The translations under genes were made by a program, and so were the position numbers. Below, piece after piece: positions 190 through 63,165 of a stretch of DNA of 64,000 nucleotides (within the stretch, counting starts at the first letter, position 1; each line of letters begins with the position of its first letter). The notes under the pieces were generated by a model, which saw nothing but the letters and a program-made list of their open reading frames with translations, had not been told where the DNA came from and made no database searches. Location: NCBI RefSeq assembly GCF_023380225.1, contig NZ_CP093362.1, positions 1,116,001 through 1,180,000 on the forward strand. Direction: 5' to 3'. The stretch is from Apilactobacillus apisilvae. GTDB lineage: Bacteria > Bacillota > Bacilli > Lactobacillales > Lactobacillaceae.

Positions 190-500
190 ATTGTTGGCAA
201 ATAAATATATATAAAAGCGTTGAAATAGAAAGAGTAATTTTTACATGAATTTCTAGAGAGATTCCGTTTGGTGCAAGGAATTAAGGAGTGTAAGGATGAA
301 AATCATCTATTAGCTGCCAGGCAAATTAAGTAGTCTGGGCTGGGAATTCCCATTATTGAATCTGCAAATCAACAGGTTTGTTTGAGTGATATCGTTTTGC
401 CATATTATAAATGAATTTAAAAACGGTATAACAAAAGGTGGTACCGCGCGCAAGCGCCCTTTATTTCGTGTATGCGAAATATGGGGCGCTTTTTTTATAC
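190..500 (+). promoter_or_regulatory. T-box riboswitch with terminator, upstream of oppA
   Basis: The canonical T-box sequence AAAGGTGGTACCGCG lies at 434-448. It is followed by a GC-rich terminator hairpin (arms beginning GCGCCC and ending GGGCGC) and a T run ending near 497. Upstream, AGAGAG and the GGTGCAA element of stem I are present near 257-280. T-boxes sense uncharged tRNA and antiterminate. The T-box TGGT would pair with an ACCA tRNA end, so the discriminator base is A. The specifier cannot be fixed by eye: the bases GAAAATCATC near 300 allow ATC (Ile) or AAT (Asn). The leader places peptide uptake under amino-acid starvation control. Confidence 0.9.
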
Positions 501-5540: not shown

Positions 5541-6365
5541 CTAATCTAGTTTGATGATTGGAATACTAAAATCTTTTACTTTATGCATATTCAATCTATC
5601 GTGATAAATTTCCACGGTATCATCAAAAAACTTATATAGTGATTTGGCAATATAAGCTGATTTATTATGAATTTTAGGATTAGTCCTAGTTTGAACAATT
5701 AAATTACGCATCGTTTTAACTAAATCATTTTGCATATAGCAGTTAGTTTCAAAACTTAATGCATTTTTAGCCTTACTATAGCCATGCTTAATAGCACGCT
5801 TTAGTGAGGCTTTTTTAGTCTTAAAAATTAATTGAGCATAATGATATAAACAGCTAGCATTCTCTGAGTACTTCACCAAAGTATTAATTAATTCCTGGTC
5901 AAAATAAGCCTTATTTTTAAGACCATCCACAATATTTTGCATTAAATCGAACTGACTAATTTTAACTGCTTGTGTAACATCTGTTTTAGATGTTGTTTGT
6001 TTAAAGTTATTTTGATTAGGAGTTACTTTTTCAACTCTATGTGGTTTACTATTTAAATTATCATGCTGAGAATTGGGTAAAAAGAAACGGGTCGCGCCAT
6101 TAAAAACTTTCTTCTTAATTACGTAACCGAATTCAGCTAACTTTTTATATACATTAATTACCGTATTGCGACCAACACCTAAATCTTTAATCATTTCATC
6201 CACGGTATAAATTACATAATAATCATTTACTTTTTTATCAAAAAATTCACGACGCTTAATTGACGAACACATGCGATCATAAATATAAGCATAAGCAAGG
6301 CGTGCATCATTGTTTAAACGATCATCATTACGGAGTTCTACATCAAATTTTATAAATTGTTTCAT
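5541..6365 (-). CDS. repA: RepA_N-family plasmid-type replication initiator, copy 1
   Basis: 274 residues. The N-terminal half has the RepA_N pattern: L.ND.RLAYAYIYDRM followed by SIKRREFF, then IYTVDEMIKDLGVGRNTVI, a winged-helix DNA-binding segment at about residues 50-90. The middle (about 115-150) is a variable Asn/Thr/Lys-rich linker. RepA_N proteins start theta replication of Firmicutes plasmids; this one is somewhat shorter than most. The start ATG follows AAAAAGGATAG. The leader carries an attenuator hairpin and is overlapped by a convergent countertranscript RNA, as in plasmid copy control. The genes around it are chromosomal, so this is probably an integrated plasmid module. A close paralogue with the same leader is at 52002-52844. 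Confidence 0.85.
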   Translation of the reverse strand: MKQFIKFDVELRNDDRLNNDARLAYAYIYDRMCSSIKRREFFDKKVNDYYVIYTVDEMIKDLGVGRNTVINVYKKLAEFGYVIKKKVFNGATRFFLPNSQHDNLNSKPHRVEKVTPNQNNFKQTTSKTDVTQAVKISQFDLMQNIVDGLKNKAYFDQELINTLVKYSENASCLYHYAQLIFKTKKASLKRAIKHGYSKAKNALSFETNCYMQNDLVKTMRNLIVQTRTNPKIHNKSAYIAKSLYKFFDDTVEIYHDRLNMHKVKDFSIPIIKLD

Positions 6366-6386
6366 TTTTATCTATCCTTTTTTAGA

Positions 6387-6423
6387 TAGAAAAAGAGGGC
6401 ACAAGTAATAAACTTGTCCCCTC
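6387..6423 (-). terminator. Attenuator hairpin in the repA copy 1 leader
   Basis: Read on the minus strand, GAGGGGACAAGT and ACTTGTGCCCTC pair with one mismatch and are followed by TTTTTCTATCT, then the repA ribosome binding site. This is an intrinsic terminator placed between promoter and gene. It fits transcriptional attenuation controlled by the countertranscript RNA. It is conserved at the second repA. Confidence 0.75.
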
Positions 6424-6441
6424 ATATATGTATTGAATATA

Positions 6442-6470
6442 TTGAAACGAATCCCTAGCTCTTATATAAT
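6442..6470 (+). promoter_or_regulatory. Promoter of countertranscript RNA 1
   Basis: TTGAAA (6442-6447), a 17-base spacer and TATAAT (6465-6470) form a near-perfect promoter directed against the repA leader. The same promoter is present in copy 2 at 52918-52946. Confidence 0.75.
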
Positions 6471-6476
6471 AACTAA

Positions 6477-6563
6477 GGAGCGTTAAAAGGTTAACAAGTA
6501 GTCTGCTTACTTTGTTAGCTGGTCGATAATTACTACCAATAATTGTCGATCAACGCTCTTTTT
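6477..6563 (+). ncRNA. Countertranscript (antisense) RNA of repA copy 1
   Basis: About 87 nt from the promoter at 6442 to the T run at 6559-6563. The fold is a closed junction. An outer stem GAGCGTT/AACGCTC encloses one hairpin (TTAACAAGTAG with CTTACTTTGTTAG) and a second (GGTCGATAATT with AATTGTCGATC, loop ACTACCAAT at 6532-6540). The outer stem and T run make a terminator. It is wholly antisense to the repA leader, so it should act as a copy-control RNA of the kind known for RepA_N and Inc18 plasmids. Confidence 0.75.
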
Positions 6564-6588
6564 CTATGGCTTTATTTGTATGTTTTTA

Positions 6589-6617
6589 AGTATAGCGGTT
6601 TTGAATTTATTTGTAAA
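6589..6617 (-). promoter_or_regulatory. Promoter of repA copy 1
   Basis: On the minus strand TTTACA, a 17-base spacer and TATACT. The same -35, spacing and -10 occur at 53065-53093 for repA copy 2. Sequence similarity between the two loci ends just beyond the -35. Confidence 0.65.
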
Positions 6618-6679
6618 TTATAATTATATCTATATACTTATATATGTGTATTGTTATTTTAAATATTTAGGAGTTTAAA

Positions 6680-9318: not shown

Positions 9319-9347
9319 CTGACAAGATGAACTATATATTATATACT
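9319..9347 (+). promoter_or_regulatory. Promoter of the type I antitoxin RNA
   Basis: CTGACA (9319-9324), 17 bases, TATACT (9342-9347). The decayed copy at 53 kb keeps the same promoter (CTGACA, 17, TATAGT). Confidence 0.65.
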
Positions 9348-9353
9348 ATAGCT

Positions 9354-9490
9354 GTAAATAAAAAGAAGCCCTGCTCAAACAGGACTTCCAAATAAAGCCG
9401 TTTAAAAGACGGTGACATAAGTTACGAACAACTACTTAAAGCTATCCCATAACCGGTCAAAGTTATATAATGGGACGGCTTTTTATTTAT
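9354..9490 (+). ncRNA. Antisense antitoxin RNA of a type I toxin-antitoxin module
   Basis: Starts about 7 bases after the -10 at 9342-9347. It ends at the hairpin AGCTATCCCAT...ATGGGACGGCT and T run near 9486. It is convergent with the toxin mRNA and overlaps that message's 3' end and its terminator (GAAGTCCTG...CAGGGCTTC on the minus strand, 9365-9388). Opposed overlapping transcripts with facing terminators are the hallmark of par/Fst-like and holin-like type I modules. Confidence 0.65.
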
Positions 9491-13714: not shown

Positions 13715-13734
13715 TCATTACCCTCCAAATAAAA

Positions 13735-13820
13735 AAGTCGTCTAATCAAAGAGACTAGACGACGATAGGGTACATTTATTCCGTTCATCGATTTGCTAGC
13801 CTCTCGGGACTAATTTAAAA
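13735..13820 (-). promoter_or_regulatory. PyrR-binding RNA attenuator of pyrFE
   Basis: On the minus strand TAGTCCCGAGAGGCTAGC (about 13797-13814) carries the PyrR-type loop GAGAGGCTAGC. It is followed by a terminator with GTCGTCTAGTC pairing with GATTAGACGAC (13738-13764) and T6. TATAGT at about 13840 with TTGCAT upstream makes the promoter. High UMP/UTP would favour PyrR binding and termination. Confidence 0.85.
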
Positions 13821-13992
13821 TCATTTATTGCTACCTACTATACTCTAAAATTACGATAATGCAAAATCAAAAAATAAATTTGCATTAAAATAAAATTTAG
13901 TGCATAATTTTTTAAGAATATAAATATCTTAGTCATAGGTATTTCAAAAAAATAATGAATGTCTGCGAGCATTCGTTTTGGAGGAATTGAAT

Positions 13993-50821: not shown

Positions 50822-51436
50822 TTGTGCGATAAAATAGATCTAATTAATTGGCAACCCGATAGCAATCATCAAGCTAAAATTATCGATCAGGTTGTCGAAT
50901 CTACTTTAATTGATAATGTTAATTCATTTAATAAGTTTTCTCAAAATGAAAATATAAACTTAATTAAGTTATTGCTATTTGCGTATTATAAAGATATATT
51001 TAGCAGTCGCCAAATTAATGAATTAGTGAAGGAAGATTTACCATCTCTTTGGCTAACGCATGGATGGATTCCTTCGTATAAAACAATTTGTTATTTTCGA
51101 ACTTTGGATGAGACCGATGATTTAATCAACCAGTGTATGAAGTCTTTGGATATAAATTTATATAGTAATCATTTTTTGAAAGTTACAGTGGTTAATGATA
51201 ATAAATGTATAATTACTAAGCACAAGTATTCATTTGTTTGGCGTGGAAAAATGATTTATTTTGATAAGTTAAATTTTCAAGAGATAATTAGTTTACTTCA
51301 CGATTTAAATGATGCTAAATATAATAATTTGATTCCTAAAAATTCAGAAGTATTTTCAGATAATCTAGATGAAATTATTATTCATTTAGAAAATTGTTTA
51401 GATGACATAAAAAAATCTTCCGAAAAATTTAGATGA
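50822..51436 (+). CDS. Transposase N-terminal-domain protein (IS1182/DUF772-like), lacking the catalytic domain
   Basis: 204 residues from TTG 50822, after AAGGGAG. LIKLLLFAYYKDIFSSRQIN followed by WIPSYKTICYFRTL (about 47-94) is the DUF772 domain of IS1182/IS5-type transposases. TKHKYSFVWRGK (about 132-143) resembles the segment where those proteins reach the first catalytic region. The rest, including the DDE core, is missing, yet the frame is open and well initiated. It could be a remnant or a DNA-binding protein kept after domestication. Confidence 0.55.
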   Translation: MCDKIDLINWQPDSNHQAKIIDQVVESTLIDNVNSFNKFSQNENINLIKLLLFAYYKDIFSSRQINELVKEDLPSLWLTHGWIPSYKTICYFRTLDETDDLINQCMKSLDINLYSNHFLKVTVVNDNKCIITKHKYSFVWRGKMIYFDKLNFQEIISLLHDLNDAKYNNLIPKNSEVFSDNLDEIIIHLENCLDDIKKSSEKFR

Positions 51437-52001: not shown

Positions 52002-52844
52002 TTATATGATTGGGATGTTAAAATCCTTAACTTCATGCATATCAAGACGATCATGATAATCTAAAACGACATCATCAAAAAACTTATATAACGCTTGGGC
52101 AATATAAGCAGATTTATTATGAATTTTATGATTAGTGCGAGTTTGGATAATTAAATTTCGCATCGTTTTAACTAAATTACTTTGCATATAACAGTTTGTT
52201 TCAAAATGTAAGGCTTTACGGGCTTCACTGTAGCCGTGTTTAATGGCACGCTTAAGTGAAGCTTTTTTAGTTTTAAAAATAAGTTGTGCATATTGATACA
52301 AACAATGCGCATTTTCAGAATATTTCACTAACGTATTAATTAAGTCCGGCTCAAAGGCTGCTTTAGCTTTTAAACCATCCACCACATTCTGCATTAAATC
52401 AAATTCACTAATGTTAACCGGTTTATTTTGGTGATGAATATTAGCTTCTGCTGTAACAGCTGTCTTAGATGTTATTTGTTTAGAGTTAGTTTGATTAGAG
52501 TTGCTAGAATCAACTTGGGTAGGTTTAGAATCTGCACTATCATCATGAAAATGGGGTAAAAAGAATCTGGTGGCGCCATTGAATACTTTTTTCTTAATCA
52601 CATATCCTAACTTAGCTAGTTTTTTGTAGACGTTAATTACTGTATTGCGACCAACACCTAAGTCTTTAATCATTTCTTCAACGGTATAAATTACATAGTA
52701 TGCATTTACTTTTTTATCAAAAAATTCACGGCGCTTGATTGAAGATTGCATGCGGTCGTATAAGTATGCATATGCCAAGCGAGTATCATTGTTTAAACGG
52801 TCATCATTACGTAAATCAATATCAAATTTAATAAATTGTTTCAT
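52002..52844 (-). CDS. repA: RepA_N-family plasmid-type replication initiator, copy 2
   Basis: 280 residues from ATG 52844 (after AAAAAGGATGG). It is nearly identical to repA copy 1 in the N-terminal winged-helix half (IYTVEEMIKDLGVGRNTVI) and the C-terminal domain (NTLVKYSENAHCLYQYAQLI). The linker (about 120-160) differs in sequence and length. The leader carries the same attenuator, promoter and countertranscript RNA. Both genes appear intact. Two intact plasmid initiators in one chromosome are unusual; they may be silenced by their antisense RNAs, or belong to separate integrated elements. Confidence 0.85.
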   Translation of the reverse strand: MKQFIKFDIDLRNDDRLNNDTRLAYAYLYDRMQSSIKRREFFDKKVNAYYVIYTVEEMIKDLGVGRNTVINVYKKLAKLGYVIKKKVFNGATRFFLPHFHDDSADSKPTQVDSSNSNQTNSKQITSKTAVTAEANIHHQNKPVNISEFDLMQNVVDGLKAKAAFEPDLINTLVKYSENAHCLYQYAQLIFKTKKASLKRAIKHGYSEARKALHFETNCYMQSNLVKTMRNLIIQTRTNHKIHNKSAYIAQALYKFFDDVVLDYHDRLDMHEVKDFNIPII

Positions 52845-52866: not shown

Positions 52867-52899
52867 GAAAAAGAGGGCACAAGTAATAAACTTGTCCCC
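52867..52899 (-). terminator. Attenuator hairpin in the repA copy 2 leader
   Basis: The same hairpin as in copy 1, followed by TTTTTCTGTCC on the minus strand before the repA site. Confidence 0.75.
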
Positions 52900-52917
52900 T
52901 CATATATGTAAGATATA

Positions 52918-52946
52918 TTGAAACGAATCCCTAGCTCTTATATAAT
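52918..52946 (+). promoter_or_regulatory. Promoter of countertranscript RNA 2
   Basis: TTGAAA (52918-52923), 17 bases, TATAAT (52941-52946), identical to copy 1. Confidence 0.75.
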
Positions 52947-52952
52947 AACTAA

Positions 52953-53038
52953 GGAGCGTTAAAGGTTAACAAGTAGTCCGATTACTTTGTTAGCTGGTCG
53001 ATAATTATTGGTAGTAATTGTCGATCAACGCTCTTTTT
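52953..53038 (+). ncRNA. Countertranscript (antisense) RNA of repA copy 2
   Basis: About 86 nt, ending at the T run 53034-53038. The fold is the same as RNA 1: an outer stem GAGCGTT/AACGCTC, and two inner hairpins. The second hairpin keeps the arms GGTCGATAATT and AATTGTCGATC but its loop is ATTGGTAGT (53007-53015), exactly the reverse complement of the RNA 1 loop ACTACCAAT. Other differences are one A deletion and two substitutions near the first loop. Confidence 0.75.
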
Positions 53039-53064
53039 CTATGTTTTATTTTTGTATGTTTATA

Positions 53065-53093
53065 AGTATAGCGGTTTTTTGGTGGGGTGTAAA
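53065..53093 (-). promoter_or_regulatory. Promoter of repA copy 2
   Basis: TTTACA, 17-base spacer and TATACT on the minus strand, as in copy 1. Confidence 0.65.
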
Positions 53094-53117: not shown

Positions 53118-53177
53118 TCATCATTTAGCTTAATACTTATTTTAGCATTGTTAAATTATATCAATATGCATAAATAA
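53118..53177 (+). pseudogene. Remnant of the holin-like toxin, copy 2
   Basis: The frame SSFSLILILALLNYINMHK ending in TAA matches the C-terminal part of the toxin at 9483-9569. The start and about one third of the helix are missing, and TAA stands just upstream in frame. The downstream terminator and antisense RNA gene are conserved, so only the toxin has decayed. Confidence 0.65.
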
Positions 53178-53305
53178 AAAGCCATCCCATTATATAACTT
53201 TGACAGGTTATGGGATAGCTTTAAGTAGTTAACTATAATTATGCCACCGTCTTTTAAACGGCTTTACTAAGAAGTTCTGTTAAAGCAGGGCTTCTTGTTA
53301 TTTAC
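53170..53305 (-). ncRNA. Orphan type I antitoxin RNA, copy 2
   Basis: On the minus strand CTGACA (53335-53340), 17 bases, TATAGT (53312-53317), then the same RNA as 9354-9490. It ends in AGCTATCCCAT...ATGGGATGGCT and T-rich sequence. With the adjacent toxin dead, this RNA could still neutralise the intact toxin at 9.5 kb in trans. Confidence 0.55.
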
Positions 53306-53345
53306 AGGTGTACTATATATAACATGTTGATTGGTGTCAGTTAGA

Positions 53346-53405: not shown

Positions 53406-54329
53406 TTATTTTACGTTCTTATATGCTTTAGCTAAACCAGCTTTGTCACCCTGAGATAAATTGGATGGTAAATTTGGACGATTCTTATACAACATACTAT
53501 CCCAATATTTGTTTTGCTTTAAACCAACTGTTAATAAAATTCCTTGGATAGGAGTAAACTCTGTATCTCCCATTAATAACCGATTTTTATTAAATGTTAA
53601 CGAACCTTTTGTAATAACATGCTTTTTATTTAAATTTGTTGTCCAAGAATAGCTGTATTTTATATTGCTATTTTTAAGAATTAGATTAGCTTTTTGTTTA
53701 TTAGTTTCTATGAATTTTAATGTACCATTATTTCTAATCTTTTTAATTGCTGACTTCCAAATATTTCTATCTTTTTTAGAATTAGATTGGATATAATATT
53801 TAATTGTTCTAGTATTAAAATGTCCATAGTTAGGAGATACATAGGTATCTGGTAATGTACCTTTTGCAAAATCATCAGAGATAATATTTTTTTCATTAGT
53901 AGTTTTAACTTTTGCATTAGGAATGTTTGAGCCTAAATTTGATGTAACTTTAGATACACCATTCTTAATATGAGAATCTTTTGTATATGGATTAATTCCA
54001 CCGCCACTACTTAAAATATCTTCAACAAATTTACCATGCCATAGTACGAAAGTTACTTTTTTAACCGGAGTACTATATCCTTTAAACGTTGGTGCCTTAA
54101 CAGTTATTTTTTGTCCTTCTTTGGCTTTTAGTAATACTGTTTGTGCTTGATCTTTATCTTTATTTGTATTTTCATTTTCTAATGTGTAATAATATGTAGC
54201 TGGCTTTGTTTTTAGAGATGATGCATTTGCATTATTTGTAAAAATCATAGTACCTAAAATACTAAATAATAATATTACTAATATTTCTAAAACAATTGAT
54301 TTATAATTTTTTGAGACAAAATCTTTCAT
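53406..54329 (-). CDS. Secreted matrixin-like protein without zinc-binding motif
   Basis: 307 residues, signal peptide or anchor at about 13-37 (ending NANA). Residues about 172-305 fit the lactobacillus matrixin layout: RTIKYYIQS, WKSAIKKIRN, then KANLILKNSNI. However, the place of the HExxHxxGxxH motif reads TPIQGILLTVGLKQN (259-273), so no His or Glu ligands remain. The downstream WDSMLY resembles the Met-turn. It is probably a non-catalytic relative acting as a binding protein. The ribosome binding site is AAAGGAG. Confidence 0.6.
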   Translation of the reverse strand: MKDFVSKNYKSIVLEILVILLFSILGTMIFTNNANASSLKTKPATYYYTLENENTNKDKDQAQTVLLKAKEGQKITVKAPTFKGYSTPVKKVTFVLWHGKFVEDILSSGGGINPYTKDSHIKNGVSKVTSNLGSNIPNAKVKTTNEKNIISDDFAKGTLPDTYVSPNYGHFNTRTIKYYIQSNSKKDRNIWKSAIKKIRNNGTLKFIETNKQKANLILKNSNIKYSYSWTTNLNKKHVITKGSLTFNKNRLLMGDTEFTPIQGILLTVGLKQNKYWDSMLYKNRPNLPSNLSQGDKAGLAKAYKNVK

Positions 54330-54341
54330 GTAAAAACTCCT

Positions 54342-54968
54342 TTAGTTATATTTTTTTATAGTTCTATGAACATTTTCAGTATTCCAATCATTAGCACCTG
54401 ATCCATTATTACTGCCAGAATAATGTGGAATATAAATTACTTTGTGTCCTTCAACTTCTATTGGATCGTAATTATCATTGTGCATTATGATTCCATATTT
54501 TTCTTTATTATATTTTTTAAATGCATGAAATGATTTGCCTCCAATAGATAATATTTTTGCATCTTTATTAATCTTTAGTTTATCCATTTTATCAAGTAAA
54601 TCTTCAACATCTGAAACATCTGCATCTACTTGATCACTATGACTATTAAATTCTGAATTTAAATCAGTCATAAATGCACCCCAGAAACTAGTTCCATATA
54701 ATGCGGCAGCTAATCTATAATCATTGCTGTTTTTATTCCAATGAAAAGCTAACAAAGAATTATCGTCAATTTTATTTCCCTCTTTACCAGGATTTTGACC
54801 AACTATAACTCTATCTAGATTAATATCATTCATCCAAGATTCTTCAAAATACTTTTCTTTATATGATTCTTTAAATAGTTTTTCTCTATTTGAATCTAAA
54901 TTATCAGTGCTTTTTGGAGTGCTCCAAATTGCAATGCTATCGTATCTTGTGAAATCCACTTTTTTCAT
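54342..54968 (-). CDS. Uracil-DNA glycosylase superfamily-like protein
   Basis: 208 residues from ATG 54968, after GGAAGGAG. VIVGQNPG (54-61) and the late IPHYSGSNNG (180-189) sit where UDG-superfamily proteins have the GxxPG water-activating loop and the HPSxxN minor-groove loop. GAFMTDLN (97-104) fits the region between. It is not the housekeeping ung. It precedes the matrixin-like gene by 12 bp on the same transcript. A role in DNA repair or phage defence is possible; the substrate is unknown. Confidence 0.55.
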   Translation of the reverse strand: MKKVDFTRYDSIAIWSTPKSTDNLDSNREKLFKESYKEKYFEESWMNDINLDRVIVGQNPGKEGNKIDDNSLLAFHWNKNSNDYRLAAALYGTSFWGAFMTDLNSEFNSHSDQVDADVSDVEDLLDKMDKLKINKDAKILSIGGKSFHAFKKYNKEKYGIIMHNDNYDPIEVEGHKVIYIPHYSGSNNGSGANDWNTENVHRTIKKYN

Positions 54969-55749: not shown

Positions 55750-58700
55750 ATGAAAAATTATCATATTGGATTAGATATAGGAACATCATCAGTGGGCTTT
55801 GCTGCTAAGTATGATGATGGCAGCTTCGTTCATAAAAAAGGTAAAAATATTATCGGTGCTCGTTTGTTTAATGAAGGACAAACCGCAGAAGAACGTCGAA
55901 CACACAGAACTGCTAGAAGAAGATACAATCGTAGAAGATGGCGCTTGAACTTATTAAATCAAATCTTCAAGGAACCCTTAGATGAAGTTGATGCCGACTT
56001 CTTAAAAAGACTTAAACAATCTAGTTTGTCCAATCAGGATGAAAATAAAAAATATTTTGGTAAGTTATTATTCCCAAAAGATGAGAATAAACGTTTTCAT
56101 ACAAACAATATTCAAGAAGATAAACGTGGGAACGATACTATTTTTCACTTACGAAATCGATTAATGAAATCGGATGAAAAAGCTGATATTAGAGAAATTT
56201 ATTTAGCTTTTCATTCAATGGTAAAAAATCGCGGGAATTTTTTGGATACTACGCCAGCTTCTTCTTTTGAAGCATCAGATATGCATTTAGTTGATGTATT
56301 ACATAATATTAATAATCTTTACGAGCAAATAAACCTTACTTTTAGCCTTAATGATTTAAATGCTGAAAAGATTGAATCAATTTTACTAGATAATAATATT
56401 CGTAATTTTGATAAGAAAAAAACACTAATTAATTTATTACAAAACAAAGTTAGTAATAAAGAAGATAAAGCTATCATTACTGAAATTGTGAAATTAATTT
56501 TAGGATACAATAGTAAAAAAATTAATTTAATTTTAGGTGCTGAAGAACTAGAAAGTAATGAATTATGCTTATCTAAAGCTAATAGTGATGATCAAATTAC
56601 TGCTATTTTTTCCGAAGTTAATGAAGTCCAACAAAATATTATTAATGAAATTAAGACCTTGTATTCAAGGGCAAAGTTAAATCAAATTATCCCTAATGGG
56701 AAGACTTATTCTGAATCGATGGTTGATAAGTATAATTTGCATCATGATCAACTAAGAAGTCTCAAGTTGAATATTTTAGATAATTTAGACTTTGATAAAA
56801 ATAGGAAAATTAATCTTAAAATAGCCTATGCTGCATACATTGGCAATTTAGACGAGGAAAACTTTTCATCTAATGCTTTAGATAATTTTCTTGATACTAT
56901 TTCGAACAAAGATGGCAAAGATGCGATAAAAAAGGTATTAAAAAATCATAAAAAGAAAATCACTCAAAGTTCCTTATTTTCAATTTTTCATGATTTACTT
57001 GGTAATCCTGAGTTAACTGAGACTTTAAGTGAGATGTTATCCAATACTCCAATATCTTTGAAAGATTTTGAAAATAAAACTAAAGAATTAATTAAAAATG
57101 ATAGTTATTCTGAAGTTCAAACAGCGATTAAGGCATTAAAAAAAGGTAAAAAGAAAGATGACCTTATTTCCGAAAATGATATTCAAAATATTTTAGACAA
57201 TAATCCACTAAAAGAATTGTTTAGCAATAAAACTATTAAAGAAGAAATTGTTAGTATTAGTAAAGCCATTCAAGCGGGAAATTATTTACCTAAACTTAGA
57301 ACTTCTGATAATGCTAGTATTCCACATCAAATTAATCAAAATGAAATGGACCAAATTATTGATAAACAAAAGAAATTTTATCCTTGGTTAGCTGAATTAA
57401 ATCCTAATTCAAATCGTAAAAATGTTGCAAAATATAAGTTGGATGAACTAATTGCATTTAGAATTCCATATTATGTTGGACCAATGATTACTGCTGATGA
57501 TCAGAAAAAAAGTTCTGATGCTAATTTTGCATGGATGAAAAGAAAAAGCAGTGGCGTGATTACGCCATGGAACTTTGAAGATAAGGTAGATGTAAAATCT
57601 ACTGCTACTGAATTCATTAAGCGAATGACGGTTAAAGATACTTATTTAATCAATGAAGATGTATTGCCAGATAATAGTTTGTTATATCAAGAATTTAAAG
57701 TATTAAATGAACTAAATATTGTAAAAGCTGACGGTAAACGCTTAACCGTAAAACAAAAGCAATCAGTCTTTAATGATTTATTCAAAAAACAAAAAAGTGT
57801 TACCGCGAAGAAACTAAGTAATTATTTAGCAGATGACTATATTAAGGCACCTGAAATAACTGGATTATCAGATAAAGACAAGTTTAATAACAATTATGGT
57901 TCATACATTGATATGAAAAAAATATTTGGCGATAAAATTGATGATTTAAGTTTGCGTGATGATTTTGAAAAAATTATTGAGTGGTCCACCATTTTTGAAG
58001 ATCGCGATATTTTAAGGTTACAACTTAAAGATATTAGTTGGTTAAATGACAATCAAGTTAATCAATTAGTTAGCAAACGTTATAGTGGTTGGGGTCGATT
58101 ATCAAAGAAGTTGTTAACTGGTTTATTAAATAAAAATGGTGAAAGAGTTATGGATATTTTATGGAATAATTCTGTAAACTTTATGCAAGCAATAAATGAC
58201 CCAGATATTAAAAATCAAATTGCAGAAATTAATTCTAAACAGGTTAATAATTTAGGAATGGAAACAATTCTAGATAATGCCTATACTTCACCACAAAATA
58301 AAAAATCCATTAGACAAACAATGAAAGTTGTCGATGATATTCAACGAGCAATGAAAGGCCAAGCACCATCATCTATCTCCATTGAATTTACAAGGAAACC
58401 GGATTCTAATTCAGATATTAAAAAGAGTCGTGGCAATCAAATGGATAAAATATACAAAAAACTATCCAAAGATATTTCAAAACAATTAAAGAATGAATTA
58501 AAAAGTAATAAAAAGAATTTATCTGATAAGTTGTATCTTTATTTCATGCAAAAGGGAATTGATATCTACACTGGGAACCCCATTGATATTGATAGTGTAA
58601 TCAATTGTGATATTGATCATATTATTCCTCAAAGCTTTATTAAAGATGATTCACTAGACAATAAGGTGCTTACTAATCATCAAACCAATGATATGAAGGG

Positions 58701-60120
58701 TGATAAAACACCATTAGATGGTTTATCATCAATTAACATTATTAATCGAGTTGAATATTGGCGAGAACTATTGGAACAAGATCTTATTGGTATTCGTAAG
58801 TTCCGTAATTTAACTACTCGATTAGACTCAATTAGTAAATATACTAAAAAGGGTTTTGTAAACCGTCAATTGGTCGAAACTAGTCAAGTCATCAAGTTAG
58901 TAGCTAATATTCTAAATGATAAATATAAAAACGATGATACCAATATTATTGAAGTTAAGGCCTATATGAATACCCAATTAAGAGATACATTTGAACTATT
59001 TAAATCAAGAGAATTAAATGACTATCATCACGGTGTGGATGCTTATTTAACCACATTTGTGGGAACTTATTTGTATAATCGCTATCCTAAACTAAGACAT
59101 TATTTTGTCTATGGTGATTTTAAAAAGTTCGATGATTCTGAAATTATCAATCATCTAAAAACATTTAGTTTCTTGCATGATATTACTAACCCAAGCAAAG
59201 AACATGAAAATAAAATTTTTGATAAAAATAGCGGCGAAATTATATTAAATCGTAAAGAAGCAATTAAAATAATCAAAAATATTTATGAGTATAAGTTTAT
59301 GTTGGTTACTCAAGAAGTTTCTACCAGAAAAAATGCTTTATATAATCAGAGTGTTTATCCTGCTAAATTAGCAAATAATAAATTTACTTCAATTAAAAAA
59401 GATAAACCAACTAACTTATATGGTGGTCATACTGGGAATAATAATGCTTATATGGCAATGGTGAAAATTACTAGCAACAATGAAAACGAATATAAGCTAG
59501 TCGGAGTTCCAATTAGATGTTTGTCTGATTTGAATAGAGCTAAAAAAGATAGCTTATCTTCTTATCAAAATACATTACATGAAATGATTAGTGAACAATT
59601 GCCTAATAAAAAATTTACAGTTGTTTTAGATAAAGTTATGTATCGTCAATTAATTGTGGATGGTGATGAAAAATATACAGTTGGAAGTGCTACCTACAAG
59701 TATAATGCTAAGCAATTAGTTATATCGTCTGAATCAGTTAAGATTCTTAAAGACGAAAAATTGCGGAATGATTTATCATCTGAAGAATTTAGCAAAAAGC
59801 TTGATTATGTATACAATGATATCTTAAAACAAGTTAATAAATATTTACCATTGTATGATATTAACTCATTTAGAAAGAAACTCAATGAGGGCTTTGACAA
59901 GTTTAAAAATATTAGTGATAATTTTGCAAAAATTAATATTTTAAATGATATTTTAGAGGGACTTCATGATAACCCTACTAGAAAAAATCTTAAGATAATA
60001 GGTATGAATACTGATCTCGGTATGATAAATAATGGTGTTAAATTATCTGAGAACGCTATGATTATTTATCAATCACCAACCGGATTATTTGAACGAAAAG
60101 TTAGAATTAAAGACTTATAA
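55750..60120 (+). CDS. cas9: CRISPR-associated endonuclease Cas9 (type II-A)
   Basis: 1456 residues, longer than S. pyogenes Cas9 (1368). RuvC-I D9 (IGLDIGTSSVGFA), Arg-rich bridge helix about 49-70 (RTARRRYNRRRWRLNLL), RuvC-II E879 (SISIEFTRK), HNH H957 (CDIDHIIPQSF), RuvC-III H1094/D1097 (DYHHGVDAYL): all catalytic residues are intact. The start follows AAAAGGAGAATG. It cuts both strands of DNA matched by the crRNA-tracrRNA guide. A strong terminator separates it from cas1, so effector and adaptation genes are transcribed apart or with attenuation. The PAM is unknown. Confidence 0.98.
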   Translation: MKNYHIGLDIGTSSVGFAAKYDDGSFVHKKGKNIIGARLFNEGQTAEERRTHRTARRRYNRRRWRLNLLNQIFKEPLDEVDADFLKRLKQSSLSNQDENKKYFGKLLFPKDENKRFHTNNIQEDKRGNDTIFHLRNRLMKSDEKADIREIYLAFHSMVKNRGNFLDTTPASSFEASDMHLVDVLHNINNLYEQINLTFSLNDLNAEKIESILLDNNIRNFDKKKTLINLLQNKVSNKEDKAIITEIVKLILGYNSKKINLILGAEELESNELCLSKANSDDQITAIFSEVNEVQQNIINEIKTLYSRAKLNQIIPNGKTYSESMVDKYNLHHDQLRSLKLNILDNLDFDKNRKINLKIAYAAYIGNLDEENFSSNALDNFLDTISNKDGKDAIKKVLKNHKKKITQSSLFSIFHDLLGNPELTETLSEMLSNTPISLKDFENKTKELIKNDSYSEVQTAIKALKKGKKKDDLISENDIQNILDNNPLKELFSNKTIKEEIVSISKAIQAGNYLPKLRTSDNASIPHQINQNEMDQIIDKQKKFYPWLAELNPNSNRKNVAKYKLDELIAFRIPYYVGPMITADDQKKSSDANFAWMKRKSSGVITPWNFEDKVDVKSTATEFIKRMTVKDTYLINEDVLPDNSLLYQEFKVLNELNIVKADGKRLTVKQKQSVFNDLFKKQKSVTAKKLSNYLADDYIKAPEITGLSDKDKFNNNYGSYIDMKKIFGDKIDDLSLRDDFEKIIEWSTIFEDRDILRLQLKDISWLNDNQVNQLVSKRYSGWGRLSKKLLTGLLNKNGERVMDILWNNSVNFMQAINDPDIKNQIAEINSKQVNNLGMETILDNAYTSPQNKKSIRQTMKVVDDIQRAMKGQAPSSISIEFTRKPDSNSDIKKSRGNQMDKIYKKLSKDISKQLKNELKSNKKNLSDKLYLYFMQKGIDIYTGNPIDIDSVINCDIDHIIPQSFIKDDSLDNKVLTNHQTNDMKGDKTPLDGLSSINIINRVEYWRELLEQDLIGIRKFRNLTTRLDSISKYTKKGFVNRQLVETSQVIKLVANILNDKYKNDDTNIIEVKAYMNTQLRDTFELFKSRELNDYHHGVDAYLTTFVGTYLYNRYPKLRHYFVYGDFKKFDDSEIINHLKTFSFLHDITNPSKEHENKIFDKNSGEIILNRKEAIKIIKNIYEYKFMLVTQEVSTRKNALYNQSVYPAKLANNKFTSIKKDKPTNLYGGHTGNNNAYMAMVKITSNNENEYKLVGVPIRCLSDLNRAKKDSLSSYQNTLHEMISEQLPNKKFTVVLDKVMYRQLIVDGDEKYTVGSATYKYNAKQLVISSESVKILKDEKLRNDLSSEEFSKKLDYVYNDILKQVNKYLPLYDINSFRKKLNEGFDKFKNISDNFAKINILNDILEGLHDNPTRKNLKIIGMNTDLGMINNGVKLSENAMIIYQSPTGLFERKVRIKDL

Positions 60121-60123
60121 GAT

Positions 60124-60166
60124 TATAAAAATGGCCGATTCTAATTTGAATCGGCCATTTTTTAGA
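60124..60166 (+). terminator. Terminator between cas9 and cas1
   Basis: AAATGGCCGATTC and GAATCGGCCATTT pair perfectly, followed by a T run. It lies inside what is normally a continuous operon. Confidence 0.9.
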
Positions 60167-60182
60167 AAGAAAGTGTAAATTT

Positions 60183-61085
60183 ATGGGATGGCGGAACGTA
60201 ATTATTTCTCAACATGCTAAATTATCTTATTCAGCTAACAATATGATTGTCCAAACATTTGAAGGAATGCATCAGATACCCATAGCTGATATTTATATAT
60301 TAATTGTTGAAAGTAACCAAGCAGTGATAACAACTGAATTAATAAGTCAATTGAATAATACTGATGTAAAGATTGTCTTTTCAGATAATAACCACGAACC
60401 ATGCTGTGAAACAGTAAATTATTATCCTAATAATCGTTCTCTTGATAAATTAGAAAAACAATATAATTGGCCAAGTAGTCGTGTAAATGTTCTATGGACA
60501 AAGATTATTAATAATAAAATTATTAATCAAATTAATGTTTTAAGAATTTATAATCATGATACTAAATCTTTAGAAAATGAATTAGGTAAGTTAGAACTTG
60601 GTGATACTAGTAATCGAGAAGCAGTGGTTGCTAGGAAATACTTTATGTTGCTATTTGATAAGAAGTTTACTCGTCGTGATTTTTCACCAATGAATGCGGC
60701 TTTAAATTATGGATATTCCATTTTATTGTCTACCTTTAATCGTTCGATTGTATTGAATGGTTATTTAACTGAAATTGGAATCCACCATCATAGTGATGAA
60801 AATAATTTTAATTTAGGTTCAGATTTAATGGAACCTTTTAGACCCATTGTTGATTATTGGTTAGCTAATAAAAACTTTTATAAATTAACTCCAGATATCA
60901 AGTTCAGTTTAGTAGAGCTATTAAATGTTGAAATTATTTATAATGGAAAAACGATGCTTTTAAATAACGCAATAGATAAATACACAAGTGATTGTCTTAA
61001 ATATTTAACTACAGGTAAATCCATTAAGATGGAGGTTGAATTGATTAATGAGGTACCGAATAATGCGCTTAATAGTAATGTTTGA
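60183..61085 (+). CDS. cas1: CRISPR-associated integrase Cas1 (type II)
   Basis: 300 residues, usual type II length (about 290-305). The N-terminus MGWRNVIISQHAKLSYS is typical of II-A. Catalytic Glu in NREAVVARKYF, His in TEIGIHHHS and Glu in SDLMEPFRPIVD are present. With Cas2 it inserts spacers at the leader end. It overlaps cas2 by 38 bp. Confidence 0.97.
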   Translation: MGWRNVIISQHAKLSYSANNMIVQTFEGMHQIPIADIYILIVESNQAVITTELISQLNNTDVKIVFSDNNHEPCCETVNYYPNNRSLDKLEKQYNWPSSRVNVLWTKIINNKIINQINVLRIYNHDTKSLENELGKLELGDTSNREAVVARKYFMLLFDKKFTRRDFSPMNAALNYGYSILLSTFNRSIVLNGYLTEIGIHHHSDENNFNLGSDLMEPFRPIVDYWLANKNFYKLTPDIKFSLVELLNVEIIYNGKTMLLNNAIDKYTSDCLKYLTTGKSIKMEVELINEVPNNALNSNV

Positions 61086-62033: not shown

Positions 62034-62073
62034 TAAGTCATAAGTAATATGAAATAATTATGAGAAATTAACG

Positions 62074-63165
62074 GTTTTAGAAGTATGTTAAATCAATAAT
62101 GTTTAAATCAAGTTACGCCGTCTTATAGTCGTATGGTCTGTTTTAGAAGTATGTTAAATCAATAATGTTTAAATCCGATCAGCTTGTACTTGCTCAAAGT
62201 AATCTGTTTTAGAAGTATGTTAAATCAATAATGTTTAAATCTAGTAACAGCTGAGTCATATTCAGCAACTAGTTTTAGAAGTATGTTAAATCAATAATGT
62301 TTAAATCACAGTTTTATAAAAATCCCAGAACCTTCCTGTTTTAGAAGTATGTTAAATCAATAATGTTTAAATCATATTTAGAACAAGGCGTGGCTACACC
62401 AGAGTTTTAGAAGTATGTTAAATCAATAATGTTTAAATCTTACACTTTTTTGTTTTTTATCGTGATAAGGTTTTAGAAGTATGTTAAATCAATAATGTTT
62501 AAATCCATTATCCAGCTAACAAATTGCCGGTAGGTGTTTTAGAAGTATGTTAAATCAATAATGTTTAAATCGCATAGGTTAGGTAAGGTTAGGTTAGGTA
62601 AGTTTTAGAAGTATGTTAAATCAATAATGTTTAAATCCTATAACCAGTTTTATTTAGCAAACCGTTAGTTTTAGAAGTATGTTAAATCAATAATGTTTAA
62701 ATCCTACCAAAGTAACTGCTAAACAATTGTTAGGTTTTAGAAGTATGTTAAATCAATAATGTTTAAATCCTACCAAAGTAACTGCTAAACAATTGTTAGG
62801 TTTTAGAAGTATGTTAAATCAATAATGTTTAAATCTCCAGTAGGCATTCCATTATATTCTTGTGCGTTTTAGAAGTATGTTAAATCAATAATGTTTAAAT
62901 CAGTACTAGACCCAGCAATGACTGTTAGCAAGTTTTAGAAGTATGTTAAATCAATAATGTTTAAATCTTTATTTAAGAAGCCATCATGGTATTTAACGTT
63001 TTAGAAGTATGTTAAATCAATAATGTTTAAATCTTATGAAGTTTTATAAAGATGTTGATAGCAGTTTTAGAAGTATGTTAAATCAATAATGTTTAAGTTG
63101 AGACTACTATAATCACTCCCGCGACTGCGGTTTTAGAAGCGTGTTAAATCAATAATGTTCCACAA
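62074..63165 (+). CRISPR. CRISPR array, 17 repeats of 36 bp and 16 spacers of 30 bp
   Basis: The repeat starts GTTTTAGAAGTATG and ends GTTTAAATC, with a fixed 66-bp period from 62074. The first 15 repeats look identical. Repeat 16 (63064-63099) has a changed end, and repeat 17 (63130-63165) is more degenerate, which marks the distal, oldest end. The leader is only 40 bp, after csn2. Spacers 10 and 11 (62704-62733 and 62770-62799) are identical. Spacer 8 (62572-62601) is built of TTAGG-like words. Transcription is towards higher coordinates, giving crRNAs that pair with the tracrRNA at 55.5 kb. Confidence 0.98.

Follow-up and report, generated by a model that had tools for sequence, protein, structure and literature searches.

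Oppositely oriented hairpin-2 loops in the predicted countertranscript RNAs of chromosomal RepA_N modules of Apilactobacillus apisilvae, and loop inversion as their possible origin

The splitting of an incompatibility group is usually pictured as a change of the loop by one base at a time. The staphylococcal RepA_N plasmids are under antisense control, as described for pSK41, pSK1 (RNAI) and pSA564 (RNA1) in the available parts of the reports (PMC5703833, PMC8129170). According to the same texts, the countertranscript RNA (ctRNA) of pSK41 is ~83 nt long and has two stem-loops, the leader takes ON and OFF structures and three bases of the kissing loop affect copy number; the outcome in pSK41 is RBS sequestration, and in pSA564 the second ctRNA stem-loop doubles as terminator and one stem is both terminator and RBS lock (PMC5703833, PMC8129170). 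A 2017 review, in its accessible portion, regards similar RNA control as apparently absent from RepA_N plasmids of other genera (PMC5703833). In pT181 and pIP501, as far as the available text goes, the bound antisense RNA favours termination within the rep leader (PMC5703833, PMC4981023), and the U-turn loop motif YUNR is known in pIP501 (PMC6562991). In the RNAI of IncK1/IncK2 and IncB/O, single loop bases decide compatibility and the changes described in the accessible text are point changes (PMC10724649). Inversion by template switching is described, in the parts of these sources at hand, for spacers in yeast genes (PMC8604942) and for loops of rRNA hairpins, bacteria included (PMC8794818), and also for the loop or spacer of microRNA MIR633, sometimes with homogenisation of the arms (PMC8794818, PMC8604942); in rRNA such loop inversions are rare, 6 with a compensatory stem change and 69 loop-only (PMC8794818). 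Antisense control of RepA_N in staphylococci and template-switch loop inversion in rRNA and yeast genes are already known; among the open-licence papers listed by our searches, we saw none that reports the RNA described below or that derives incompatibility or antisense specificity from loop flips.

The stretch of DNA analysed here (the window) comprises 64,000 nucleotides, C1:1116001-1180000, of a 1.55 Mb genome of which contig C1 makes up 1.47 Mb. It carries ordinary chromosomal genes, among them addA, an M24 peptidase and family-5 solute-binding proteins (Pfam/NCBIfam scans), and an ordinary T-box leader (211-464, plus strand) and PyrR binding site (13729-13825, minus strand). A reading of the sequence alone had described two chromosomal repA modules; both are present, and the count on the chromosome rises to three with a further module 47 kb away, outside the window.

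5541..6365, minus strand: repA copy 1, RepA_N + Bac_RepA_C initiator, 274 aa (Pfam, dN/dS)
52002..52844, minus strand: repA copy 2, RepA_N + Bac_RepA_C, 280 aa from the conserved MKQF start (Pfam)
C1:1074225-1075046, outside the window: third module (copy 3)

The RepA proteins of copies 1 and 2 are 77% identical and score 31.7 and 33.7 bits for PF06970 (cut-off 30) and 47.4 and 49.7 bits for PF18008 (cut-off 25), the mechanical ORF of copy 2 extending to 52880. The homology in common with the third copy spans ~1.07 kb and consists of repA, leader and promoter.

Opposite the repA leader at both loci lies a predicted ctRNA of ~86 nt ending in a U tract. The elements of this region and of the leader are as follows.

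6478..6563, plus strand: ctRNA 1, predicted, two hairpins within an outer stem and its own U-tract terminator (folding, model R1)
52954..53038, plus strand: ctRNA 2, predicted (folding, model R1)
6442..6470, plus strand: ctRNA 1 promoter TTGAAA-17-TATAAT, 11/12 consensus, pattern match only
52918..52946, plus strand: ctRNA 2 promoter TTGAAA-17-TATAAT, 11/12 consensus, pattern match only
6589..6617, minus strand: repA 1 promoter TTTACA-17-TATACT, 10/12 consensus, pattern match only
53065..53093, minus strand: repA 2 promoter TTTACA-17-TATACT, 10/12 consensus, pattern match only
6390..6423, minus strand: leader attenuator of copy 1, terminator stem-loop 6395-6423 and U tract 6390-6394 (sequence, folding)
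6386..6397, minus strand: terminator-tail half of the 12-nt anti-terminator pairing of copy 1, partner 6556-6567 (inverted repeat, free-leader fold)
6556..6567, minus strand: 5' leader segment AUAGAAAAAGAG of copy 1, partner of the terminator tail without ctRNA (repeat, folding)
52868..52901, minus strand: leader attenuator of copy 2, stem-loop 52873-52901 and U tract 52868-52872 (sequence, folding)
53031..53042, minus strand: 5' leader segment of copy 2, pairing with the terminator tail with one G-U (sequence, folding)

The promoter-like sites and the fold z-scores (-5.94 for ctRNA 1, -6.02 for ctRNA 2) support the earlier prediction of a countertranscript with structured loops opposite the leader; model R1 gives 96.3 and 96.6 bits, both RNAs being among the sequences from which it was built. 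The leaders have no Rfam match at the gathering score, and relaxing the E value to 5 adds just L20_leader, at 21.6 and 21.1 bits where the gathering score is 58.7, and mir-3173. In the folded free leader of copy 1 the AUAGAAAAAGAG segment pairs with the last bases of the terminator stem and with the U tract, through a 12-nt repeat that is exact in copy 1 and contains one G-U in copy 2, and in 7 of 7 Apilactobacillus leaders a terminator with a free U tract forms once the stretch covered by the ctRNA is blocked. As this attenuator/anti-terminator switch is predicted by folding, the ctRNA should cause early termination, and the predicted mode of repA control is antisense-induced transcription attenuation. 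The ~86-nt ctRNA would pair with the repA leader via two kissing loops; without it, AUAGAAAAAGAG would pair with the terminator tail and block the terminator, whereas with it the segment would be covered, the terminator would form and repA transcription would stop.

The two ctRNAs are set apart by their loops.

6532..6540, plus strand: hairpin-2 loop of copy 1, ACTACCAAT, with the 7-nt loop CTACCAA at 6533-6539, C..A frame, YUNR on the leader mRNA
53007..53015, plus strand: hairpin-2 loop of copy 2, ATTGGTAGT, with the 7-nt loop TTGGTAG at 53008-53014, T..G frame, YUNR on the ctRNA
6501..6507, plus strand: hairpin-1 loop of copy 1, GTCTGCT
52976..52982, plus strand: hairpin-1 loop of copy 2, GTCCGAT

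Positions 6521-6551 read GGTCGATAATT-ACTACCAAT-AATTGTCGATC and positions 52996-53026 read GGTCGATAATT-ATTGGTAGT-AATTGTCGATC. The exactly inverted loop within identical arms that the sequence-only reading had reported is confirmed base for base at both loci: the 9-nt loops are exact reverse complements that differ at 5 of 9 positions, and 22 of 22 arm bases are identical. Re-examined in the whole-genome copies of both loci (L005 and L007), the orientations are again opposite and the same as in the window; given this agreement, and since other species' assemblies also contain both orientations, it is unlikely that the inversion is an artefact of assembly. The earlier account had passed over hairpin 1, which differs between the copies as well. 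Odds of 4^-9 for the coincidence of the loops were considered and rejected; as the loop has a fixed palindrome-symmetric frame, and the repertoire is small, the coincidence is far less extreme.

A covariance model built from 18 ctRNAs matched in 6 of 16 genomes of the genus and in 15 of 397 of the family, with 5 of 24, 1 of 10 and 3 of 21 in the genera of genomes G305, G196 and G331; one of the last three (L209) is weak and by eye not ctRNA-like. A second, sequence-only model matched in 10 of 396 family genomes. Two ctRNA queries of plasmid sequences matched 134 and 86 records, all Lactiplantibacillus, a third matched 2 Lentilactobacillus records, and the window leader as query gave no match; 30 plasmid leaders, hand-picked to span the range of identities shown, were read. 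In the Lactiplantibacillus plasmid leaders (L178-L199, L210-L215) many combinations of hairpin 1 and hairpin 2 occur, as if exchanged between plasmids. The 38.6-kb contig C3 (L008) has a RepA whose leader is different, with many TTGTATACATG-like repeats ahead of repA; a ParA-like gene lies close by. The covariance model finds no copy of the two-hairpin ctRNA on it.

Twenty of 56 loci were dropped before the loop statistics, trees and pair identities: seven with 8-nt loops (L049, L190, L193-L196, L210), four with 10-nt loops (L052-L055), L056, which has other arms although CTGCGAA, its loop, is compatible with the C..A frame, and eight loci whose hairpin 2 duplicates that of a retained locus (L050, L051, L183-L185, L198, L199, L215). 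L216 and L217 were found later and are likewise outside the loop statistics, and the hairpin-1 loop pattern gave no loop for L012. In the remaining 36 loci (31 distinct hairpins) hairpin 2 has the form ..TTA-YTNNN[A/C]R-TA.., its arms being conserved and its loops variable, and all 31 distinct hairpins fit YT-NNN-[A/C]R in the 7-nt loop. The flank pair is C..A in 19 of 31 and T..G in 12 of 31; T..A and C..G, which would be common if positions 1 and 7 varied independently, occur in 0 of 31, and coupling this complete was reached in 0 of 100,000 shuffles of position 7, a significance inflated by relatedness. A loop flanked by C..A reads T..G on the opposite strand, so that inverting either frame gives the other. 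The frame also decides which of the two paired RNAs, and only one of them, bears the YUNR motif: among 18 distinct loops it is the ctRNA in 9 and the leader in 9. The 10-nt loops of genus g14, probably Lentilactobacillus, are framed CC..AA (L055) or TT..GG (L052, L053/L054 and the named plasmids L216 and L217), so that four bases switch together between two frames. The 36 loci hold 35 distinct combinations of hairpin-1 and hairpin-2 loops (one locus without a hairpin-1 call), and in eight cases one hairpin-1 loop is paired with several hairpin-2 loops, which suggests a reshuffling of hairpin modules among loci.

We lean towards recurrent inversion of the loop by template switching as the origin of the two frames, in combination with antisense attenuation, as the explanation that accounts best for the data; the coupled flanks, the exact inverses in close relatives and the 10-nt loops make inversion the best origin of the frames. 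The frame of hairpin 2 is palindrome-symmetric, with arms ..TTA/TAA.. around Y-U-NNN-A-R, and for this reason an inverted loop would still be a well-formed 7-nt loop on both RNAs, its three-base core becoming its own reverse complement and the YUNR U-turn motif changing sides between ctRNA and leader. Most simply, such inversions would be template switching of DNA polymerase between the arms, repeated within the RNA family, and together with point changes in both loops they would leave almost all modules with a distinct two-loop specificity. Hairpin inversions are reported from chloroplasts. We suggest only tentatively, with confidence that falls a little short of even, that the symmetric frame lets single template-switch inversions produce ready-made specificities with the U-turn swapped, that new compatibility types could thereby arise in a single inherent step, and that this has recurred in RepA_N plasmids and chromosomal modules of Lactobacillaceae.

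A different account, to which we give a real but distinctly smaller chance, is that frames and cores arose by ordinary point substitution, with selection keeping a 7-nt loop, one U.G-closable RNA per pair and a G/C-rich core; the repertoire being small and strand-symmetric, exact inverse loops would then arise by convergence. The 18 distinct 7-nt loops include four exact reverse-complement pairs, whereas a uniform-core null expects 0.9 (four reached in 0.3%) and dealing the cores anew among the frames gives 2.2, with four reached in 4.1% of 20,000 such shuffles; that the latter null already expects 2.2, and that five cores (ACC, GGA, GGT, TCC and TGC) occur in both frames, is what substitution would produce. 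Exact-inverse loops are found in L017/L018, with 91% identity outside the loop, in L180/L189, with 89%, and in L192/L197, with 76%. Point substitution has difficulty with L180 and L189, whose hairpin-1 loops are identical and whose hairpin-2 loops, different at 5 of 7 bases, are exact inverses, with the four coupled bases of the 10-nt loops, and with the absence of T..A/C..G intermediates and other mismatches from the 31 distinct hairpins. It accords with the hairpin-1 loops, which diversify strongly and yield no inverse pair. The comparison of the two hairpins, with 0 exact reverse-complement pairs of 253 for hairpin 1 and 4 of 153 for hairpin 2, speaks for inversion, as a partial control since hairpin 1 has no symmetric frame.

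Comparisons across frames point in both directions. Of the pairs that differ in frame, 17 are at least 85% identical outside the loop; their cores lie closer to the inverse in 11 cases, closer to the unchanged core in 4 and equally close to both in 2, L189 being common to 6 of the 11; the window's own cluster, which supplies 10 of the 17, splits into 4 inverse, 4 unchanged and 2 tied, as substitution would allow. On two flank trees, parsimony requires at least 11 and 8 frame changes, and counting an inversion at cost 1 lowers the steps from 57 to 43 and from 49 to 35 (14 saved each), a saving equalled in 34.5% and 8.5% of 200 trials in which the T..G loops were dealt anew among T..G tips and thus, in favour of substitution, not clearly above the null. 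Inverting the T..G loops reduces core steps from 33 to 31 and from 31 to 28 on the two trees, as compared to a mean of 41 when 12 random tips are flipped (observed values reached in 0.5% and 0.15% of 2,000), a control that says little because the uninverted loops also lie far below 41 steps. The tree tests are thus only suggestive for inversion. Arm mismatches number 0 in L018 and 1 in L017, 1 in L192 and 2 in L197, 1 each in L180 and L189 and 2 in each window copy. Weighing the sequences as a whole, we consider that most frame changes probably, although by no means securely, go back to inversion and that the core is altered by point changes.

How recurrent inversion would apply to the window copies themselves is seen from their relatives. 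Outside the loop, copy 2 is 90.9% identical to A. micheneri A, 90.1% to copy 3, 90.0% to A. timberlakei, 88.2% to A. quenuiae, 87.3% to A. micheneri B and 85.5% to copy 1. As copy 1 is the most distant of these six nearest loci, a flip of copy 1 into copy 2 is only one possible history, and with five loci nearer to copy 2 a direct one-step flip between the window copies was rejected as a necessary history. Of the proposal that inversion through the arms was the simplest origin, the route stands as one used in this RNA family (L017/L018, L180/L189, the frame rule and the 10-nt loops), whereas the one-step derivation of the window pair from each other finds no support; their opposite frames could come from the same process with no such step needed. 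Copy 2 is syntenic with A. micheneri A, with neighbour genes in common, and the loop of the latter, TTACCAG, agrees with that of copy 2 in frame and is opposite to it in core. Compared with A. timberlakei (90% identity), copy 2 has the inverse loop plus one further change, and between copies 2 and 3, as between copy 1 and A. micheneri A, the frame is changed and the core unchanged. The loop of copy 2 would most simply be a flip of a CTGCCAA- or CTACCAA-like ancestor.

It is improbable that the chromosomal modules are decaying plasmid remnants whose loops drift without function. A relic would be expected to look as the surroundings do in part: among 14 ORFs neighbouring the window modules and 2 at the third (those of at least 100 aa), Pfam finds no partition gene or site-specific recombinase, and the chromosomal repA of A. 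timberlakei (L003 4786-5646, L010) has an internal stop, its leader and ctRNA looking intact. Origin repeats inside rep are typical of the RepA_N family, and clear ones are missing here: repA 1 has no repeat array within the gene and one weak array upstream (6619-6644), and repA 2 has only a 15-nt array of 2.6 copies with 87% matches at 52465-52502, in the linker part, which is not found in repA 1 and could be an origin remnant. Against decay, 15 of 15 pairwise comparisons among six repA genes give a dN/dS of 0.08-0.19 (0.13-0.19 for copy 1 against 5 homologues; the A. timberlakei gene was excluded for its stop), so that RepA, judged from these sequences, is under purifying selection; terminator and anti-terminator pairing are kept in 7 of 7 leaders, and the arms are conserved while the loops vary.

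Several other elements lie near the modules. Beside module 2 are a partial IS1182-like transposase (50822-51436, plus strand), two adjoining ORFs without a Pfam/NCBIfam match (53406-54329 and 54342-54968, minus strand) and, starting 2.7 kb away, a type II CRISPR-Cas system (Cas9 and Cas1 by Pfam; 55750-61085 and 62070-63100) whose array has repeats offset by ~66 nt. The DNA beside the rep module of genome G014 (L018 3479-3699) matches this array, making it a second rep module near CRISPR repeats. RatA-type antitoxin RNA matches (Rfam RF01776) lie at 9347-9434 (plus strand), ~2.7 kb away from the promoter of repA 1, and at L200 9600-9694 (minus strand), less than 0.5 kb from the third ctRNA; window positions 53137-53319, beside module 2, are similar in part to the RatA-bearing stretch near the third ctRNA. 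From this arrangement, a type I toxin-antitoxin element may be travelling near these rep modules.

The flipped loop had been expected to be a poor match to the target of the other copy, and the predicted loop-loop energies of hairpin 2 agree, being -12.7 for cognate pairs as compared to +2.0 for ctRNA 1 with leader 2 and -4.2 kcal/mol for ctRNA 2 with leader 1. Copy 3 may cross-talk at hairpin 2, given predicted energies of -10.4 for ctRNA 2 with leader 3 and of -6.5 and -5.8 kcal/mol for ctRNA 3 with leaders 1 and 2. Predicted hairpin-1 loop energies are -11.7 to -12.3 for cognate and +0.4 to -6.1 kcal/mol for crossed pairs, and as hairpin 1 differs too, the idea that hairpin 2 alone splits an incompatibility group is unsupported. 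Incompatibility itself is likewise unsupported for modules that lie in a chromosome. Since complete non-cognate duplexes are still predicted to be stable (-68.4 to -75.8 as compared to -98.5 to -103.5 kcal/mol for cognate ones), specificity would have to be kinetic. An avoidance of identical hairpin-2 loops within genomes also finds no support, 2 of 22 pairs being identical with 1.5 expected.

The two antisense RNAs had further been read as complementary to each other and perhaps as a sponge. The hairpin-2 loops of ctRNAs 1 and 2 are indeed fully complementary, with a predicted loop duplex of -12.7 kcal/mol equal to the cognate one, and yet it is very unlikely that the flip was kept so that two ctRNAs of one cell pair and titrate each other. 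Their hairpin-1 loops are mismatched (-1.3 kcal/mol), the whole-molecule co-fold reaches -20.9 as compared to -98.5 to -103.5 kcal/mol for cognate ctRNA and leader, and complementary hairpin-2 loops are not enriched within genomes (1 of 22 pairs, as compared to 6 of 168 between genomes; the within-genome count is reached by 59% of shuffles over 20 loci and 7 genomes), so that in these pairs there is no sign of selection for ctRNA complementarity. A programmed reversible switch, in which a recombinase flips the loop within the population as in phase variation, is scarcely credible in spite of the short inverted arms that flank the loop, as searches for three L. plantarum-type stems gave no allele flipped in place (30, 36 and 55 matching records, none at 95% or above; best identities 91.3%, 89.1% and 91.1%), the neighbour ORFs scanned hold no recombinase and only the IS1182-like transposase piece, and known invertase sites are far longer than the hairpin-2 arms.

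As antisense RNA and target share the same DNA, an in-place inversion of the loop changes both RNAs and keeps their match. If flips are frequent and cleanly orthogonal, they would explain a fast radiation of compatibility types and would be a simple source of orthogonal regulator pairs. The modules also point to antisense control of RepA_N in lactobacilli and on the chromosome, beyond staphylococci, with a predicted attenuator as output.

Like the staphylococcal RepA_N systems, as these are presented in the available texts, the modules combine a RepA_N initiator with a small ctRNA of two stem-loops, here predicted, and a switchable leader; unlike them, they are predicted to act through a terminator in the leader that is countered by a 5' anti-terminator pairing, the hosts are Lactobacillaceae, three modules are chromosomal and the hairpin-2 loop occurs in both orientations. 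With pT181 and pIP501, on the accessible descriptions, they have in common antisense-promoted termination, predicted in our case, and the U-turn motif; those plasmids belong to other Rep families, whereas here the anti-terminator is predicted to pair with the 3' end of the terminator and the U tract, and YUNR lies on the antisense RNA in 9/18 and on the leader in 9/18 distinct loops. For IncK1/IncK2 and IncB/O, inversion is unmentioned in the main text of PMC10724649 as available. As in the template-switch inversions, the loop is the exact reverse complement of that of a relative inside conserved arms (L017/L018, L180/L189, L192/L197), and in contrast to those of rRNA, the loop concerned is a specificity loop whose frame tolerates inversion.
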